In this document: in pieces, positions 7,432 to 31,236 of the stretch
How the letters are laid out: every line of letters begins with the position of its first letter
How positions within the stretch are numbered: position 1 is the first letter of the stretch
Origin: a virus
Strand: one strand, 5' to 3'
Length of the DNA: 31,236 nt
IMG/VR virus record: IMGVR_UViG_3300030329_000324
Coordinates: 1 to 31,236 of that record
The notes under the pieces: generated by a model
Told to the model about the DNA's origin: nothing
What the model saw: only the letters and a program-made list of their open reading frames with translations
The model's database searches: none
Program-made: the position numbers and the translations under genes

Positions 7432-8238
7432 ATGGCAGAAAAAAAGATAAAAAAAAGATTAGTAGAGCTAGTCATAGATGAAGACTCAGAAAGATTTGGC
7501 GTTGAGGCTATAAGTCTCGTTGAGTTTCCTGCGATAGAGGAGAACTGGGTATTCTTTAATAAAGACAATTTCCTATCCTTAGCAAAATTAGATGAAGAAA
7601 AAAGAACTCTCGTAGGTGCCGTACTAATTCCCGAAAAAGAAATACCTAGATATGATCAAGAACTTGATGAGGAGTATGTAGTATACTTTAGTGAAGAAAC
7701 CATTAAACAAGCTCAGGAGCTATTTATGAGCAGCCTAAGGAACAATAATGCCACCTATGAGCATAAGACACCTATTGAGGGTTTAAGCGTTGTAGAAAGC
7801 TGGATTAAGGAAGATGAAAAATACGATAAATCCTCACAATTTGGTTTTGAAAAAATGCCACTTGGAACTTGGTTTGTAAAAATGAAAGTTAATAATGATG
7901 AGGTTTGGGATAAAGTAAGAAACAAAGAAGTAAAAGGTTTCAGCATAGAGGGATATTTTACAGACAAACTAATAGAAGCTTCTAAAAAGAAATACAAAAA
8001 GAAAAAGAAATACACAAAAGAAGATAGAATAAGTGATGAGGATTTGTTAGACAGAATAAGAATTATTATAGCTCAAGATGAGAAAGACCAATTTGAGCTA
8101 ATGAAAGAATACATTACGAAAAAGGCTTTAGCAAAATATCCTTGGAAACAATGTATCGCTGATATGAAAAAAAGGTACGGAAAAGAATCTGCTGCTAAAA
8201 TATGTTCAGCTATAAAAAGGGGTACTGTAAAAAGGTAG
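7432..8238 (+). CDS. Prohead serine protease, XkdF type (Peptidase_S78_2)
   Basis: This 268-residue protein has the pattern of XkdF-like phage proteases. It opens with 'ELVIDEDSERFGVEAISLVE', has a conserved His at about residue 111 (ATYEHKTP), a 'GTWFVKMKVNNDEVWDKV' core and 'VKGFSIEGYF' with Ser171. His and Ser are the expected catalytic residues. Such enzymes process scaffold and capsid subunits during head maturation, and the scaffold and capsid genes follow directly. After a Lys-rich linker (about 183-202) there is a small C-terminal module with 'WKQCIADMKKRYGKESAAKI', a helical Cys-containing motif seen at the ends of phage head proteins. The start is preceded by an AT-rich leader (ctattacaATG) with no Shine-Dalgarno sequence. 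Confidence 0.8.
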   Translation: MAEKKIKKRLVELVIDEDSERFGVEAISLVEFPAIEENWVFFNKDNFLSLAKLDEEKRTLVGAVLIPEKEIPRYDQELDEEYVVYFSEETIKQAQELFMSSLRNNNATYEHKTPIEGLSVVESWIKEDEKYDKSSQFGFEKMPLGTWFVKMKVNNDEVWDKVRNKEVKGFSIEGYFTDKLIEASKKKYKKKKKYTKEDRISDEDLLDRIRIIIAQDEKDQFELMKEYITKKALAKYPWKQCIADMKKRYGKESAAKICSAIKRGTVKR

Positions 8239-23474: not shown

Positions 23475-23832
23475 AAACAAAGGACTTGGAGATACAATAG
23501 CAAAGATTACAAAGGCTACAGGAATAGATAAAGTGGCTAAAGCAGTATTAGGAGATGATTGTGGTTGTGAAGAACGAAGAAAAAAACTAAATCAAATGTT
23601 TCCAAACTTTAAAAATATTAGACAATTCACAGAAGATGAAATAAAGATTTATGATGAAGTAGTTCCTACTGTAGATAAAAAGGGTATGCTTACACCTGCT
23701 GAAAGGGGAATAGTATCAGCTTTATACAAAGGAGTATTTGGTGTAGACCCTCAATGGAAAAGCTGTAGTCCTTGTAATAAACAAATAATGAATAATCTAA
23801 AAAAAGTATATGAAAAATCTTGCAAGGTATGA
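23464..23832 (+). CDS. Cys-containing protein of unknown function
   Basis: This 122-residue protein starts 'GDKNKGLGDTIAKITKATGI' and has a 'DDCGCEERRKKLNQMFPNF' motif (a CxC followed by a basic helix), then 'CSPCNKQ' near the end. The paired cysteines suggest a metal-binding site. I have met this opening and CGC(E/S)ER motif in Bacteroidetes phage genomes, but I know no function. It directly precedes the HNH gene (ATGA overlap). Confidence 0.6.
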   Translation: MGDKNKGLGDTIAKITKATGIDKVAKAVLGDDCGCEERRKKLNQMFPNFKNIRQFTEDEIKIYDEVVPTVDKKGMLTPAERGIVSALYKGVFGVDPQWKSCSPCNKQIMNNLKKVYEKSCKV

Positions 23833-24080
23833 AGAAGTATGTAAAAATATATATGGACTACCACGATTATTGTAAAGACGATATAATAGTTTGTTCTATG
23901 TGTAATAATATTGCAGTAGATATTCATCACATTAAAGCCAGAGGAATGGGTGGTAGTAAGAAAAAAGATTTTATTGAAAACTTAATTGCGTTATGTAGAA
24001 GCTGTCACATAAAAGCTGAAATGGATAAAGAATTTAATTTAAAATGTAAACAATATAATGAGCAATTTCACAATAAATAA
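23829..24080 (+). CDS. HNH endonuclease
   Basis: Starting at the ATG overlapping the previous stop (23829), the product has about 83 residues. 'CSMCNNIAVDIHHIKARGMG' gives the first zinc Cys pair and the HH catalytic motif, and 'ENLIALCRSCH' gives the central Asn and second Cys pair. It is a compact HNH domain. Small HNH proteins next to terminase or modification genes help packaging cleavage or cut unmodified DNA. Here it is the immediate upstream neighbour of the deazaguanine operon (23-base overlap with queD). Confidence 0.8.
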   Translation: MKKYVKIYMDYHDYCKDDIIVCSMCNNIAVDIHHIKARGMGGSKKKDFIENLIALCRSCHIKAEMDKEFNLKCKQYNEQFHNK

Positions 24081-24480
24081 AAAGTATCATTTTTACGCAG
24101 GACATAGAAATGAGAATTTAAAAGACAAATGTGCTAATTTACACGGACATACATATTATGTAGATATTTATTTTACCTTTCCTTATGACAAAAAACTAGG
24201 AATAACTAAATTGTTCAGCGAAATAGATGATGTGGTAGATCCATTTATAAAAAAATTAGACCATTCTTTATTAATAAATAAAAACGATCCATTATTAAAA
24301 TATTTAGAACTATTTGTTGTGCAAGAAAAAACAAGCTTAAAGCTTACAAAATTTAATAAAGTTACAAGTGCAGAGCATTTAGCGGAATATATTTATAATG
24401 GATTAAAAGAATTACCAATAACAAAAATAGTATTACAAGAAACAAAATCAAGTATAGTTATATATGAACCTAATAGTTAG
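24058..24480 (+). CDS. queD: 6-carboxy-5,6,7,8-tetrahydropterin synthase QueD
   Basis: This 140-residue member of the PTPS/QueD family converts 7,8-dihydroneopterin triphosphate to 6-carboxytetrahydropterin, the second step of preQ0 synthesis. Visible residues are the zinc ligand His16 (YAGHR), Cys25 followed by His29 and His31 ('CANLHGHTYYVDI') as catalytic Cys and further ligands, Asp68-His69 ('LDHSLL') of the charge relay, and Glu128 ('LQETKSS') for pterin binding. The length is normal for QueD. It is the first enzyme gene of the operon, overlapping HNH upstream by 23 and queE downstream by 17 bases. Confidence 0.88.
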   Translation: MSNFTINKKYHFYAGHRNENLKDKCANLHGHTYYVDIYFTFPYDKKLGITKLFSEIDDVVDPFIKKLDHSLLINKNDPLLKYLELFVVQEKTSLKLTKFNKVTSAEHLAEYIYNGLKELPITKIVLQETKSSIVIYEPNS

Positions 24481-25201
24481 TGAATATTTTTATTCAATAC
24501 AGGGAGAGGGTAAAACAATGGGTGTGCCCTCCGTATTTATTAGATTAACAGCGTGCAATTTAATGTGTGGTGGTAGAGGAACTGAAAAAGATTTCAAACT
24601 ACATAATGGAGCAACTTGGCGGTGTGATAGTATAGAGGTGTGGCGAAAGGGAAAAAAATGGAAAACAGATGATTTCGTAGAAGAAGTTGTAGATTTATAT
24701 GGATTAAAATTAAGCGAAGGAACACATCTAATAATTACAGGGGGTGAGCCTGTGTTACAACAAAAAATGTTAAAAGATTTTTTTGATAAATTAATAGCAA
24801 GATTAGGCTTTAAACCATTTATTGAAATAGAAACAAATGGAACATTAATACCTAAGTTGATTTATAATTATATTGATTTAATTAATTGTAGCCCTAAATT
24901 ATCAAACAGTGGAGAATTGAAAGAAAAAAGAATTAAAAAGGAGGTATTAACATTTTTTAATAACTCATCAAAATCAATATTTAAATTTGTTATAAGTAGG
25001 GAGAAAGATTTAGCAGAAGTAATAGAGCTACAAAACAAACTTAATCTACATACACATAAAATATATTTAATGCCTAGTGCTGAGGATCAAAAAGAATTAA
25101 AAGAAAATCAAGACAGGGTGTTAGATTATTGTTTAAAATATTCATTTAACTTTTCAACTAGATTACAAATTATATTATGGAACAAAACAACAGGAGTTTA
25201 A
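24464..25201 (+). CDS. queE: 7-carboxy-7-deazaguanine synthase QueE (radical SAM) with extended cluster loop
   Basis: This 245-residue enzyme rearranges 6-carboxytetrahydropterin to 7-carboxy-7-deazaguanine. 'EYFYSIQGEGKTMGVPSVFI' is the QueE N-terminus, and 'IITGGEPVLQQ' (SAM-binding GGE) and 'FIEIETNGTLIP' with 'NCSPKLSNSG' follow in the right order. The iron-sulfur cysteines are Cys31, Cys35 and Cys54, i.e. CX3CX18C: about 16 extra residues (Gly-rich, ending 'NGATWRCDSIEVW') separate the second and third ligands compared with CX3CX2C. The insertion is in frame and the flanks fit well, so the protein is probably active with a variant loop. It overlaps queD and the FolE fusion. Confidence 0.87.
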   Translation: MNLIVSEYFYSIQGEGKTMGVPSVFIRLTACNLMCGGRGTEKDFKLHNGATWRCDSIEVWRKGKKWKTDDFVEEVVDLYGLKLSEGTHLIITGGEPVLQQKMLKDFFDKLIARLGFKPFIEIETNGTLIPKLIYNYIDLINCSPKLSNSGELKEKRIKKEVLTFFNNSSKSIFKFVISREKDLAEVIELQNKLNLHTHKIYLMPSAEDQKELKENQDRVLDYCLKYSFNFSTRLQIILWNKTTGV

Positions 25202-26037
25202 AACTATCTTGGGTAGAGATATACAAGAAGTTAGATTTATTAATTGAAGATTTATTTAAAAAACACGATACTTTAAACATATATGGTATTCCAAGGGGAG
25301 GACAATTTATTTCAGGTGTTAGTGGATTTGCTGTTGATACCCCTGAAGAAGCAAATATAATTGTAGACGACCTTTATGATAGCGGAACGACTTACAGAAA
25401 ATGGAAAGCTAAATACCCTGATAAAGATTTTTGTTTTTTATTTGATAAAAGAGAAAAAGAATACAAAGGAAAGTGGTTAGAATTTCCATGGGAGGAGTCT
25501 GGCGAAAAAGAAGTAGAAGAAAATGTGGTAAGACTTTTAGAATACTTTGGACAAGATGCTAACAGGGAAGGACTAAAAGACACACCAAAAAGATATATTA
25601 AATTCTGGAATGAATTTCTAAGTCCTCCCAATTGGAAGCCCACTACTTTTTCTGCAGAGGGTTATGACCAAATGATTGTGCAAACGAATATCCCTTTTCA
25701 TTCTGTTTGTGAACATCACTTAGCTCCATTCTTCGGCACAGGACACATAGCATATATTCCAAACAAAAAGATTATTGGCTTAAGTAAATTAGCAAGAACT
25801 TTAGAAACTTATAGTAGAAGATTACAGAATCAAGAAAGAATAACAAATCAAGTGGTGGACTTTCTTATGAAAGAGTTAGAGCCTTTAGGAGTGGGTTGTG
25901 TTATAAAAGCTAAACATATGTGTATGGAGATGAGAGGTGTTAAAAAACATAATACATTTACAACAACATCTGCATTAAGGGGGGTGTTTGAAAATAAAGA
26001 ACAAAAAGATGAATTTTTTAAATTAATAGAATTATGA
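25177..26037 (+). CDS. folE: Phosphoribosyltransferase-GTP cyclohydrolase I fusion
   Basis: The protein has 286 residues in two parts. Residues of about 10-105 form a short type I phosphoribosyltransferase: 'YGIPRGGQFISG', the PRPP motif 'IIVDDLYDSGTT' (61-72), and 'KWLEFPWEE', which parallels the base-binding hood (WIEQPWD) of the E. coli xanthine-guanine enzyme Gpt. Residues of about 110-286 are GTP cyclohydrolase I, with 'FGQDANREGLKDTPKRY', 'PFHSVCEHHLAPFFGTGHIA' (Cys178 and His181 as zinc ligands, catalytic His in the same stretch) and 'KHMCMEMRGV' (Cys249 as third ligand). FolE makes dihydroneopterin triphosphate from GTP, the first step of preQ0 synthesis. The PRTase part might convert guanine released by DpdA back to GMP. 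Confidence 0.85.
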   Translation: MEQNNRSLKLSWVEIYKKLDLLIEDLFKKHDTLNIYGIPRGGQFISGVSGFAVDTPEEANIIVDDLYDSGTTYRKWKAKYPDKDFCFLFDKREKEYKGKWLEFPWEESGEKEVEENVVRLLEYFGQDANREGLKDTPKRYIKFWNEFLSPPNWKPTTFSAEGYDQMIVQTNIPFHSVCEHHLAPFFGTGHIAYIPNKKIIGLSKLARTLETYSRRLQNQERITNQVVDFLMKELEPLGVGCVIKAKHMCMEMRGVKKHNTFTTTSALRGVFENKEQKDEFFKLIEL

Positions 26038-26699
26038 AAAAAGCATTAGTATTACTTTCGGGTGGACAGGATAGTACCACCTGTTTATATTGGGCGTTAA
26101 AAAATTTTAAAGACGTATATGCAATAGGATTTGATTACGGACAAAAACATTTAAAAGAAATAGAATGTGCTAAAAAAATATGTAAAGACGTAGGAGTGCC
26201 TTATGAATTAATAAACATAAAAGGATTGCTAGGTAATTCAGCTTTAACAAATCACGATGAAGATATTAATTCAAATCATAAAGACTTGGAACATTTACCT
26301 GCAAGTTTTGTGCCTGCAAGAAATGCTGTGTTTTTAACTATTGCTACTGCTTATGGTTTTAATAAAGGAATCACAGATATAGTTACAGGAACTTGCGAAA
26401 CAGATTACAGTGGCTACCCAGATTGTAGACAAAGATTTATTAACAGTCTTTCAGTAACAATGACTTTAGCACTTGATACTGATATAACAATACATACACC
26501 ACTTATGTATTTAGACAAAGCGCAAACTTGGAAATTGGCAAAAGATTTAAATTGCTTAGACGTTATTATTAACGATACAATGACTGATTATAATGGATGC
26601 GAAACATTGAATGAATGGGGACGGGGAAATTTAGACAACCCAGCAAGTGAGTTACGAGCAAAGGGGTATTACCAAGCGAAAGAGAATGGTTGGTTATGA
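26034..26699 (+). CDS. queC: 7-cyano-7-deazaguanine synthase QueC lacking zinc cysteines
   Basis: This 221-residue enzyme converts carboxydeazaguanine to preQ0 using ATP and ammonia. It has the PP-loop 'LLSGGQDSTTCLYWA' (residues 8-22), 'IGFDYGQKHLKEIECA', 'LPASFVPARNAVFLTIA' and 'GTCETDYSGYPDCRQRF', all in QueC order. The usual C-terminal zinc motif (CYxx...CGxCxxC) is replaced: Asp-Tyr-Asn-Gly stands where Cys-Tyr is expected, and 'EWGRGNLDNPASELRAKGY' where CGxCxxCxLR is expected, leaving one Cys (189). Length and alignment are otherwise normal, so this is divergence and not truncation. It overlaps folE and dpdA by four bases each. Confidence 0.85.
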   Translation: MKKALVLLSGGQDSTTCLYWALKNFKDVYAIGFDYGQKHLKEIECAKKICKDVGVPYELINIKGLLGNSALTNHDEDINSNHKDLEHLPASFVPARNAVFLTIATAYGFNKGITDIVTGTCETDYSGYPDCRQRFINSLSVTMTLALDTDITIHTPLMYLDKAQTWKLAKDLNCLDVIINDTMTDYNGCETLNEWGRGNLDNPASELRAKGYYQAKENGWL

Positions 26700-27595
26700 T
26701 TCTATATTTAGCGGGAAATGTAGGTAATCAAAAATACAAGGAATCAAGTATGGTGTTAGGTGGAGCATTAAACCAACTAATATCGTATAACGATATATTA
26801 ACAAAAAATGCAGATATGAATTTATACTTTGCGGGGGCAGAAGCATTTAATAAAGTTCTAGAGGATATGAAAACCACAAAAGAATTATTTTCTTATTATA
26901 GTATTCCAAAGAGCAAAGCAGAAGATTTATTTAAAAGAAAAAGAAAAATCTTTATTGATAGCGGAGGGTTTTCCGCCTTTACACAGGGGGCAGAAATAAA
27001 CATTGACGAGTATTGTGATTTTATTAAGAAATACAACAAACACATTACCGCTTATGCTCAACTGGATGTTATAGGAGATGAGCAGGGAACACAAGATAAT
27101 TTGGAGTATATGGAAAAGCAGGGATTAAAACCACTACCTGTTTTCCATTTTAGGGGCGATTTTAAGCGATTAGAGACACTTTCTAATAAATATGAATATA
27201 TTTGCTTAGGTGGACTCGTTCCGCTTGCTAGCAGAAAGGATATTTTAAAGAGCCATTTGGACCAATGTTTTAAAATAATAAAAAACAAATGTAAAGTTCA
27301 CGGGTTTGGAATGACAGGTGTTGAGATATTAAAAAGGTATCCTTGGTATTCGGTAGATAGCACTAGTTGGATAGAGGCATCAAGACGGGGTACTTATTAT
27401 GAATTTAAAAACGGTGAAATGATTTCACTGCCAACATCAGAAAAAAACAAAGCCACATATAAAACAATAGAATACACAGGAAAGGTAAAAGGTATGTGGA
27501 GACTAAGGCTTGTACAATCAATTAAAGAGTGGTTGAAATTAGAAACTTATATAACAAAATTATGGAAAAAAAGGGGAATAAATTGGGATTCATAG
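26696..27595 (+). CDS. dpdA: DNA 7-deazaguanine transglycosylase DpdA (TGT-like)
   Basis: Starting at the ATGA-overlapping ATG (26696), this protein of about 299 residues follows the pattern of tRNA-guanine transglycosylases redirected to DNA. 'KIFIDSGGFSAF' carries the active-site Asp of the DSGGF motif, 'AYAQLDVIGDEQGTQDNLEY' follows, 'YICLGGLVPLASR' replaces the GGLAVGE base-binding loop, and 'HGFGMTGVEILKRYPWYSVD' with 'STSW' provides the nucleophile Asp. The C-terminal CxCxxC zinc site of tRNA enzymes is absent, as in phage DpdA. With a complete preQ0 pathway directly upstream, the role is exchange of guanine in phage DNA for a deazaguanine base. The subfamily and the sequence context it modifies cannot be read from this window. 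Confidence 0.82.
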   Translation: MILYLAGNVGNQKYKESSMVLGGALNQLISYNDILTKNADMNLYFAGAEAFNKVLEDMKTTKELFSYYSIPKSKAEDLFKRKRKIFIDSGGFSAFTQGAEINIDEYCDFIKKYNKHITAYAQLDVIGDEQGTQDNLEYMEKQGLKPLPVFHFRGDFKRLETLSNKYEYICLGGLVPLASRKDILKSHLDQCFKIIKNKCKVHGFGMTGVEILKRYPWYSVDSTSWIEASRRGTYYEFKNGEMISLPTSEKNKATYKTIEYTGKVKGMWRLRLVQSIKEWLKLETYITKLWKKRGINWDS

Positions 27596-28209
27596 AAATT
27601 CCTGTAGAAAAATTAGTTAAAGCGGACTGGAACTACAAAACAGAAGATCCAGAAAAACAAGAAAAACTAAAAGAGAATATAAAAAGAAACGGACAAATAG
27701 AAAATATTATTATTAGAGAATTGAAAACAGGTTTTTTTGAAGTAGTGAATGGTAATCATAGACTGTCCGTTTTAAAGACTTTAAACATAGAAAAAGCATA
27801 TTCCTACAACTTAGGTAAAATAAGTCAAGCACAGGCAATGAGAATAGCAATAGAAACAAACGAAACTAAATTTGAAACTGATAGCATTGTTCTTGCAGAA
27901 AGAATTAAAGAAATTTCTGCGGTATTTGATGACCTTGAATTAACTATGCCTTATAGTAAACAAGAATTAGAAAACTTTAAAACATTAACAGATTTCGATT
28001 GGAATCAATATGACACAGAACAAATAGATACTTTAAGTGATACAGAGTTTAATAAAACTATAACTTTAAAGATAACAGATGAAACTTATAAAAGATGGCT
28101 AGAATTAAAAGATAGAATGAAAAACATAAATGGATATAGCAACGAATCAAAGGTGTTTGAGTTTGCTATAATAGAGGCTTTAAATATACCGATTGAAAGC
28201 TATAAATAA
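27562..28209 (+). CDS. ParB/Srx-like domain protein
   Basis: From the ATG at 27562 (A-rich leader; an in-frame ATG at 27529 would overlap dpdA by 67 bases) the protein has about 215 residues. The first ~100 match the ParB N-terminal fold: 'IEIPVEKLVKADWNYKTEDP', 'LKENIKRNGQIENIIIRELK', 'VVNGNHRLSVLKTL' (the GxxR-like phosphate-binding box) and an 'ALMAI.ETNET'-type segment. The C-terminus has 'TLKITDETYKRWLELKDRMK', a DNA-binding-like helix seen in similar phage proteins. ParB-like domains in phages can be nucleases or CTP-dependent DNA clamps. Adjacency to dpdA and terminase suggests a link to modification or packaging. Confidence 0.75.
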   Translation: MEKKGNKLGFIEIPVEKLVKADWNYKTEDPEKQEKLKENIKRNGQIENIIIRELKTGFFEVVNGNHRLSVLKTLNIEKAYSYNLGKISQAQAMRIAIETNETKFETDSIVLAERIKEISAVFDDLELTMPYSKQELENFKTLTDFDWNQYDTEQIDTLSDTEFNKTITLKITDETYKRWLELKDRMKNINGYSNESKVFEFAIIEALNIPIESYK

Positions 28210-28623: not shown

Positions 28624-29743
28624 TGCGACCACAAGAATAGTAGTAAATCAAGGTGGTACTAGAAGCAGTAAGACTTATTCTTTAGCACAGCTAATAATCC
28701 TGAAAGCTCTACAGGAACAAGGAAAGGTATATACTATTTGTAGAAAGACTTTGCCTGCTCTTAAAGGTACTGCCTACAAAGACTTTTTTAATATCTTAGA
28801 AGAACACAATCTATATAATCCCGACAAACATAATAAATCTGAACTTACTTACAAATTAAATAATAATGAAATAGAATTCATCTCGGTTGATATGCCTCAA
28901 AAGATTCGTGGAAGAAAGAGAAATGTATTATGGCTTAATGAAGCAAATGAGTTTAGTTTTGAAGACTGGATTCAGCTCACATTAAGAACAACAGAGAATA
29001 TTTATTTAGACTTTAATCCTAGTGATCCATATAGTTGGATATATGACAATGTAATGAATAGAGAAGATTGTACTTTCATTAAATCTACCTATTTGGACAA
29101 TCCCTTTTTGCCTGAAGAAACAATTAAGGAAATAGAAAGATTAAGAGATTTAGATAGTAACTATTGGAAGATATATGGACTTGGAGATATGGCTCAACCT
29201 ACTGAAACTATATTCAGGCAATTTGAGATTTGTAATAACATACCTACTGAAGCACAGCTAACAGCAATAGGAATGGACTTTGGCTATTCTAACGATCCTA
29301 CGGCAATAGTGGAGGTGTTTAAATTAAATGATGATTTATACATTAATGAACTAATATATAGTAAAGGATTAACAAACCAAGATATAGCAGAAAAGTTAAG
29401 GGAATTAAATATCACAAGACAAATAGAAATTATTGCTGATTCAGCAGAACCTAAGTCAATAGAGGAGCTATACAGACAAGGCTTTAATATTAAAGGGGCT
29501 AAGAAAGGTGCTGATTCTATTAATATGGGAATAGATGTTTTAAGGCGTTTTAAACTACATATAACTAAGAATAGTACAAATGCTTTAAATGAGTTCAAAT
29601 ACTACAAATGGCTCACGGATAAAAACGGACACATAATAAATAAACCTGCTACTAACCAACAAGATCATATATTAGATGCTTGTAGATACGTTGCTTTAAA
29701 TAAGCTAATGACTAATCATAGTGGCAAATACTATATTTTATAA
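28574..29743 (+). CDS. terL: Terminase large subunit (ATPase-nuclease)
   Basis: This 389-residue Terminase_3-type motor has Walker A 'GGTRSSKTYSLAQ' (residues 27-39), Walker B 'NVLWLNEANEF' with catalytic Glu123, the coupling segment 'TENIYLDFNPSDPYSWI', and the RNase-H-like nuclease Asp residues Asp235 ('GMDFGYSNDP'), Asp289 ('IIADSAEPKS') and Asp364 ('NQQDHILDACRYV'). It pumps DNA into proheads and cuts it. The start is TTG at 28574, 50 bases inside terS; no ATG occurs before the Walker A box in this frame, so TTG is the only reasonable choice and translation is probably coupled to terS. Confidence 0.93.
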   Translation: MKSLNLQGTVVLQKNLNATTRIVVNQGGTRSSKTYSLAQLIILKALQEQGKVYTICRKTLPALKGTAYKDFFNILEEHNLYNPDKHNKSELTYKLNNNEIEFISVDMPQKIRGRKRNVLWLNEANEFSFEDWIQLTLRTTENIYLDFNPSDPYSWIYDNVMNREDCTFIKSTYLDNPFLPEETIKEIERLRDLDSNYWKIYGLGDMAQPTETIFRQFEICNNIPTEAQLTAIGMDFGYSNDPTAIVEVFKLNDDLYINELIYSKGLTNQDIAEKLRELNITRQIEIIADSAEPKSIEELYRQGFNIKGAKKGADSINMGIDVLRRFKLHITKNSTNALNEFKYYKWLTDKNGHIINKPATNQQDHILDACRYVALNKLMTNHSGKYYIL

Positions 29744-29774
29744 ACGATTATTAACAAAATATATATACTATAAA

Positions 29775-30365
29775 ATGGAAAGAGAAAAAAGGAAAGTTGA
29801 AATACCTAACGATTGGAGTGGGATTACAATACAAATGTATCAAAAGTTTCAAGAAGTAAAGAGAAAGAAGTTAGAAAAAGACGAATTTGAATTAGAAGTT
29901 TTAGGTGTTATTTGTGGGCTAGATAAAGAAATGATTGAAAGACTTGAAGTTAAAAGTTTAAACAAGATACTTAAAACACTTAGATTTTTATCTACTGATA
30001 TACCTGAAAACCAGGAGCTTGAAAAAAAGGTAGAATGGAATGGCAGGAAGTATGGATTTATACCTAATCTCAGTGAAATAACAACAGGGGAGTATATTGA
30101 TATAGAACAATACTGTAAAGAGGGTGAAAAGAACTTGCATAAGATAATGAGTATATTATATAGACCAATAGTAAAAGAAACTAAAACTAGATATAGTATA
30201 GAACATTATAAACCTAGTGAAGACTTAGAGGAGGAGTTTTTAGACTTCCCGATACTTCCCTCAATGTCAGCGTTGAGTTTTTTTTTTCATTTAGGAAGAA
30301 CACTTCCAGACGCTTTGGGCAGATTTTTGAAAAAGGAGATCAAGAAGATGCGGCAGGCTCTTTAA
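29775..30365 (+). CDS. Tail assembly chaperone-like protein (0 frame)
   Basis: From the ATG at 29775 (an alternative GTG at 29721 lies inside terL) the protein has about 196 residues. It begins 'REKRKVEIPNDWSGITIQMY', a virion-assembly protein seen after terminase in Bacteroidetes phages, and continues with acidic helices and 'EITTGEYIDIEQYCKEGEKN'. It ends with a hydrophobic helix 'SMSALSFFFHLGRTLPDALG' and a short Lys-rich tail at the TAA 30363-30365. The -1 frame after this point encodes a further conserved-looking module (30329-30541), the layout of the GpG/GpGT tail chaperones, which are made as short and long forms and bind the tape measure. Confidence 0.6.
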   Translation: MEREKRKVEIPNDWSGITIQMYQKFQEVKRKKLEKDEFELEVLGVICGLDKEMIERLEVKSLNKILKTLRFLSTDIPENQELEKKVEWNGRKYGFIPNLSEITTGEYIDIEQYCKEGEKNLHKIMSILYRPIVKETKTRYSIEHYKPSEDLEEEFLDFPILPSMSALSFFFHLGRTLPDALGRFLKKEIKKMRQAL

Positions 30366-31025: not shown

Positions 31026-31236
31026 TGCCAGTAACATTTAGATTAAGAGGACCAGACGGAAAGTTTGTAAAAGGAAAGGCTAAGAACCTAGAAAAGGCTA
31101 TGACTAAATTCGGTTCTAATGTTATAAAGGGTGGTAGAGCTATTCTTAATAAAAAGAAAAAAAGAACAAAAGAGAATACATTATTTAAGGACTTTCATTA
31201 TACTATGAAAAGTACAGATAGTACCATAACAATGGG
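31025..31236 (+). CDS. 5' part of the tail completion gene that continues at position 1
   Basis: The ATG overlaps the previous stop. The frame encodes 'PVTFRLRGPDGKFVKGKAKN' and a Lys/Arg-rich segment, then enters the 50-base duplicate in the same frame as position 1 (the codon AAG at 31187 equals the codon at 1). The whole gene therefore spans the joint and ends at 447. The window edge cuts it only because of where the circle was opened. Confidence 0.85.
   Translation, partial: MPVTFRLRGPDGKFVKGKAKNLEKAMTKFGSNVIKGGRAILNKKKKRTKENTLFKDFHYTMKSTDSTITM
31187..31236. repeat. Terminal direct repeat, copy 2 (circular contig overlap)
   Basis: Identical to bases 1-50. See copy 1. The frame of the spanning gene is preserved through it, which argues for circular closure or permuted ends. 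Confidence 0.95.

Follow-up and report, generated by a model that had tools for sequence, protein, structure and literature searches.

In all likelihood, the complete phage genome of about 31.2 kb described here has a single operon whose products modify the phage DNA with 7-deazaguanine after replication, the chemistry, the product and the protection that it would give being predicted from homologues. Within the 31,236-nucleotide stretch that we analysed (the window), five genes on the same strand span positions 24058-27595, with successive overlaps of 17, 25, 4 and 4 nt. These overlaps lend strong support to the single operon proposed in the initial annotation, and the ORFs and their family profile matches bear out its assignment of the five genes to QueD, QueE, a FolE fusion, QueC and DpdA. 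The families stand as they were called; the partner of FolE now appears to be a Gpt-like phosphoribosyltransferase (PRTase), and QueE and QueC proved non-canonical. The predicted features of the region are:

23820..24080, + strand: HNH endonuclease-like ORF, overlapping queD; context, outside the pathway (PF01844, E 1.7e-6)
24058..24480, + strand: QueD, 6-carboxytetrahydropterin synthase (PTPS, E 2.7e-22)
24464..25201, + strand: QueE-like radical SAM enzyme with a CX3CX18C motif (phrog_2076, E 2.5e-57)
25177..26037, + strand: PRTase-FolE fusion; residues 1-112, loop-deleted Gpt-like phosphoribosyltransferase; residues 114-284, GTP cyclohydrolase I (GTP_cyclohydroI, E 5e-64)
26034..26699, + strand: QueC without zinc cysteines (PF06508, E 4e-65; TIGR00364, 220 bits)
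26696..27595, + strand: DpdA, DNA-guanine transglycosylase, DpdA1-like with a short C-terminus (phrog_887, E 1.8e-56)
27562..28209, + strand: ParB-like protein overlapping the end of dpdA, a possible accessory gene (phrog_723, E 5e-22)

FolE and QueC pass curated cut-offs, while QueD and QueE fall under the NCBIfam equivalog cut-offs. With the profiles used, no QueF, Gat domain or other amidotransferase, ArcS or DUF6884 was found in the window. Many relatives likewise have a ParB-like gene close to DpdA (e.g. L094:4325-4789), and in Cellulophaga phage phi38:2 the two genes are neighbours.

As predicted from the enzyme families, FolE would convert GTP to dihydroneopterin triphosphate, QueD would make carboxytetrahydropterin, QueE would contract that compound to CDG, and QueC would turn CDG into preQ0. 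In a last step that runs by way of a covalent Asp intermediate, DpdA would put preQ0 in the place of guanine in DNA and set the guanine free. DNA altered in this way would be expected to resist restriction enzymes that read G. The ParB-like protein encoded beside DpdA might aid DNA targeting.

The virus record measures 31,554 bp, and its bases 1-31236 make up the window; ten N and 308 further bases follow. Bases 1-50 repeat exactly at 31187-31236, and the final 368 bases of the record align with the window start at 88%; the record thus has redundant ends, which close it at 31,186 bp. Joining the ends yields an open frame of 202 residues across the junction. In G031, G016 and G015, relatives that measure 31-32 kb, the distances separating FolE, the 29721 gene and the genes for the portal and a 1109-residue protein fit a single circular map of this size. 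Taken together, the terminal overlap, the frame across the junction and the spacing in relatives make it very probable that this tailed-phage genome is complete, with a length of about 31,186 bp, in agreement with the earlier estimate of about 31 kb. We found no relatives at the DNA level among isolate phages. The homologue of window gene 29721-30365 in G031 (7618-8226) has in-frame stops inside the match.

DpdA and its likely substrate

The proposed base-exchange enzyme matched phrog_887, the phage queuine tRNA-ribosyltransferase family of PHROG (E 1.8e-56). It scored 27.8 bits against the NCBIfam DpdA equivalog NF041059, whose cut-off is 200 bits, and a Pfam search gave no match; the protein is therefore assigned on the strength of its phage family and its fold, and not as a member of that equivalog. 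Although no solved relatives were found by sequence search, an AlphaFold2 model built from an alignment of 32 sequences (pLDDT 83) retrieved TGTs in all 50 of the matches listed by Foldseek against the PDB (best 1j2b, E 2e-7), and the predicted fold is a TGT-type barrel. Both profile search and structure prediction thus put 26696-27595 within the TGT/DpdA superfamily, the placement on which the initial annotation had hinged. D88-S89-G90, D124, H202 and D221 are invariant in 46 sequences, and include both catalytic aspartates (D88 of DSG and D221 of DST/SSW). A histidine marks DpdA1 and is missing in DpdA2 (Hutinet et al. 2019, PMC6884629); we take H202 to be this residue. The C-terminus is about 40 residues shorter than that of CAjan DpdA and there is an N-terminal insert, both shared by close relatives.

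As the fold is that of TGT, an enzyme that usually acts on tRNA, the genes could in principle raise host queuosine in tRNA in place of modifying DNA. We consider this very improbable: the protein groups with phage DpdA (phrog_887) and not with cellular TGT models, the TGT zinc site CxCxxC was not seen in its sequence, and deletion of dpdA in phage CAjan abolishes DNA modification (PMC6884629). Families, gene order, fold and invariant catalytic residues all argue well for the phage 7-deazaguanine operon with DpdA that was first proposed.

The kind of system is known. DpdA with FolE, QueD, QueE and QueC, and without an amidotransferase, is the gene set of 'group 2' of Hutinet et al. 2019, which Escherichia phage CAjan and Mycobacterium phage Rosebush share and in which both carry dPreQ0, at ~32% and ~28% of G, respectively (PMC6884629). 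In CAjan this base has a protective effect and disappears when dpdA is deleted (PMC6884629). Measured DpdA phages range from none to ~32% of G modified (PMC6884629), and the term 'hypermodified', applied earlier to this genome, is a prediction. The same gene cluster occurs in CAjan, 9g, VpKK5 and NP1. Rosebush was compared by gene set. CAjan differs in its genome of 59.7 kb, its unfused FolE, its CX3CX2C QueE and a QueC that has the zinc cysteines. Closer in architecture are the Queuovirinae Pseudomonas phage NP1 and Vibrio phage VpKK5, and Pseudomonas phage PSASB_03, which share both the PRTase-FolE fusion and DpdA; their FolE and DpdA are only 32-46% identical to those of the window (VpKK5 QueC, ~54%). 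Unlike in the window, QueE is CX3CX2C in all three and NP1 carries a Gat-QueC. PSASB_03 QueC has lost its zinc cysteines, as in the window.

Variant QueE and QueC and the base that may be installed

QueD scored 65.7 against the TIGR03367 equivalog cut-off of 89.25, and its CxxxHGH site is present (H16, C25, H29, H31). QueE lies below the cut-offs of all NCBIfam QueE models (best 67 bits against 200), with the motifs QGEG, TGGEP, ETNG and SPK intact. Its cysteine motif, CNLMC-GGRGTEKDFKLHNGATWR-C, has the spacing CX3CX18C in place of the usual CX3CX2C or CX14CX2C. Within the fetched set, 55 QueE entries, near-duplicates included, have this spacing, and relatives have X5, X6, X22 or X23 at the equivalent position. 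The QueE proteins of Haloarcula virus HVTV-1 (X22) and Cellulophaga phage phi38:2 (X6) likewise have an insert between the second and third cysteines and are 39-43% identical to that of the window over their full length; in those entries, however, FolE is unfused and QueF is present, and DpdA was undetected near the HVTV-1 cluster. The haloarchaeal host of HVTV-1 can probably make preQ0 itself, and for that reason this virus is weak proof that a QueE with an inserted motif functions.

QueC, in contrast, scores well over its curated cut-offs (PF06508, 219.8 bits against 22; TIGR00364, 220 bits against 150.3), and its PP-loop SGGQDS and SGYPDCR motifs are intact. Its four-cysteine zinc site is gone: TMTDYNG...NLDNPAS stands in place of TCYNG...CGECPAC, and alignment with CAjan QueC puts Asp, Asn, Asn and Ser at the four cysteine positions. 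Over a dozen loci show this zinc-less pattern again, and the relatives L003, L018 and L026 retain the cysteines. In L003, a DUF6884 protein (2006-2425) lies between FolE and this cysteine-bearing QueC.

Many relatives have no QueC: we found none in the fetched DNA of 42 of the 69 loci with a fused PRT-FolE and DpdA, nor in 17 of the 19 PRT-FolE contigs searched whole. L015, L022, L025, L033, L034, L038, L041 and others, on contigs of 12-58 kb, carry PRT-FolE, QueD, QueE and DpdA without QueC, and the close relatives L013 and L014 (FolE 84-87% identity) have only a short, divergent QueC-like ORF. The QueC-less contigs with PRT-FolE and DpdA are candidates for 7-carboxy-7-deazaguanine or 7-deazaguanine in DNA. 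Work by Cui et al. in 2023 reportedly deals with dCDG, dDG and DpdA3.

These observations qualify the initial claim that the genes cover every step from GTP to preQ0. All the families are there by homology, but the QueE cysteine motif is non-canonical, the zinc ligands of QueC are gone, and relatives often do without QueC. Because both of the last synthetic enzymes are variant and so many relatives lack QueC, the pathway might yield an acid or an amide in place of preQ0. The operon would then install 7-carboxy- (CDG) or 7-amido-7-deazaguanine (ADG), with the zinc-less QueC inactive or halting at the amide, as the cysteine loss in the window and relatives might suggest. We judge this unlikely, given the scores and intact motifs of QueC and the precedent of phage CP220: its group was reported with dADG (PMC6884629), yet CP220 QueC keeps its zinc cysteines. 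Loss of the zinc site does not, then, track the amide, and its use as a dADG marker was unsupported. The base made in this phage is probably preQ0.

A phosphoribosyltransferase domain on FolE

Residues 114-284 of the FolE fusion constitute a normal GTP cyclohydrolase I (TIGR00063, 188 bits against a cut-off of 181.6). The zinc site CEHH...HxC is present, and C178, H180, H181, H247 and C249 are invariant in an alignment of 50 PRTase-FolE sequences. The profile of residues 1-112 matched xanthine-guanine PRTase 5xtk over the whole domain (PRT profile A1, E 6e-10), and an AF2 model of the fusion reached a pLDDT of 92. The PPi loop, the PRPP loop (D64, D65, D68, T72) and the purine-pocket residues K91 and W100 are invariant in the 50 sequences. 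E. coli Gpt likewise matches by profile over the whole domain: D64, D65, D68, T72, K91 and W100 align with its D88, D89, D92, T96, K115 and W134, of which K115 contacts guanine O6 and W134 stacks. In contrast to Gpt, the window domain is fused to FolE and lacks the flexible catalytic loop and adjoining strands; 19-32 residues separate RGG from VDD in the fusions with a strict motif (74 of 78 distinct fusions), versus ~47 in Gpt by alignment numbering. By its sequence, then, the FolE N-terminus is a loop-deleted Gpt-like (xanthine/guanine phosphoribosyltransferase) domain. We found no description of the fusion in the literature searched, most subscription papers being out of reach, and the domain is apparently undescribed. 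Among isolate phages, 33 records have the PRTase domain, all on FolE; where annotated, they are named only 'GTP cyclohydrolase' or 'hypothetical', and none is called a PRTase.

The fusion keeps company with DpdA. In IMG/VR, the domains are fused in 79 of the 80 best loci, and DpdA occurs on 71 of the 80 PRT-FolE contigs (70 in the fetched DNA and L086 by whole-contig search); the nine contigs without detected DpdA measure 4-13.5 kb. Neither a fusion nor a DpdA of the window type was present in 80 other viral FolE loci taken as a control set, although each set is clustered by descent, so these figures describe an association and not independent counts. Where we found the fusion in bacterial and archaeal genomes, it always lay in a cluster with Que genes, and two of these clusters also held DpdA; on the MAG contig L109, the fusion is present and DpdA was not found. 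Phages L188, L189 and L196-L201 have separate Gpt-like PRTase genes close to or beside folE and no detected DpdA1, an absence that is weak because the search controls gave no signal. Strict confinement of the PRTase domain to DpdA phages was rejected on account of these phages and L109. In the FolE tree, the fused proteins form nearly a single group that encloses the unfused CAjan and 9g proteins, which suggests that the PRTase domain was lost there.

Two roles may be considered for the domain. It could bind guanine released by DpdA together with PRPP, making GMP that would be converted to GTP, the substrate of FolE, or it could sense guanine or GMP. Guanine salvage is a tentative proposal, against which stand the missing catalytic loop, the separate PRTase genes beside folE without detected DpdA, and the L109 fusion. 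The same missing loop and separate genes, with the invariant ligand-pocket residues, would fit a non-catalytic allosteric sensor that responds to PRPP, GMP or guanine and adjusts FolE in a role like that of GFRP on animal GCH1. Such a sensor is a serious possibility, though short of an even chance. With the purine-contacting Lys and Trp both retained, a purine ligand fits salvage and sensing alike. More broadly, though this is doubtful, the loop-deleted Gpt domain could be a unit that DpdA phages devote to guanine and that, by recycling or sensing, couples base exchange to precursor synthesis, with the zinc-less QueC and CX3CX18C QueE marking a lineage whose pathway end has been rewired.

The complete 31-kb genome, the loop-deleted Gpt-FolE, the CX3CX18C QueE and the zinc-less QueC make this system a variant whose combination of traits we did not find described, with most subscription papers outside the search. 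It is a case of a compact, complete phage genome with a full 7-deazaguanine operon, and it brings out an apparently overlooked fusion, a purine PRTase on FolE carried in 33 isolate records and annotated as such in none. The zinc-less QueC and altered QueE offer naturally occurring forms with which to test what base a given phage puts into its DNA, and if the domain handles guanine, it would answer what becomes of the base that DpdA ejects.
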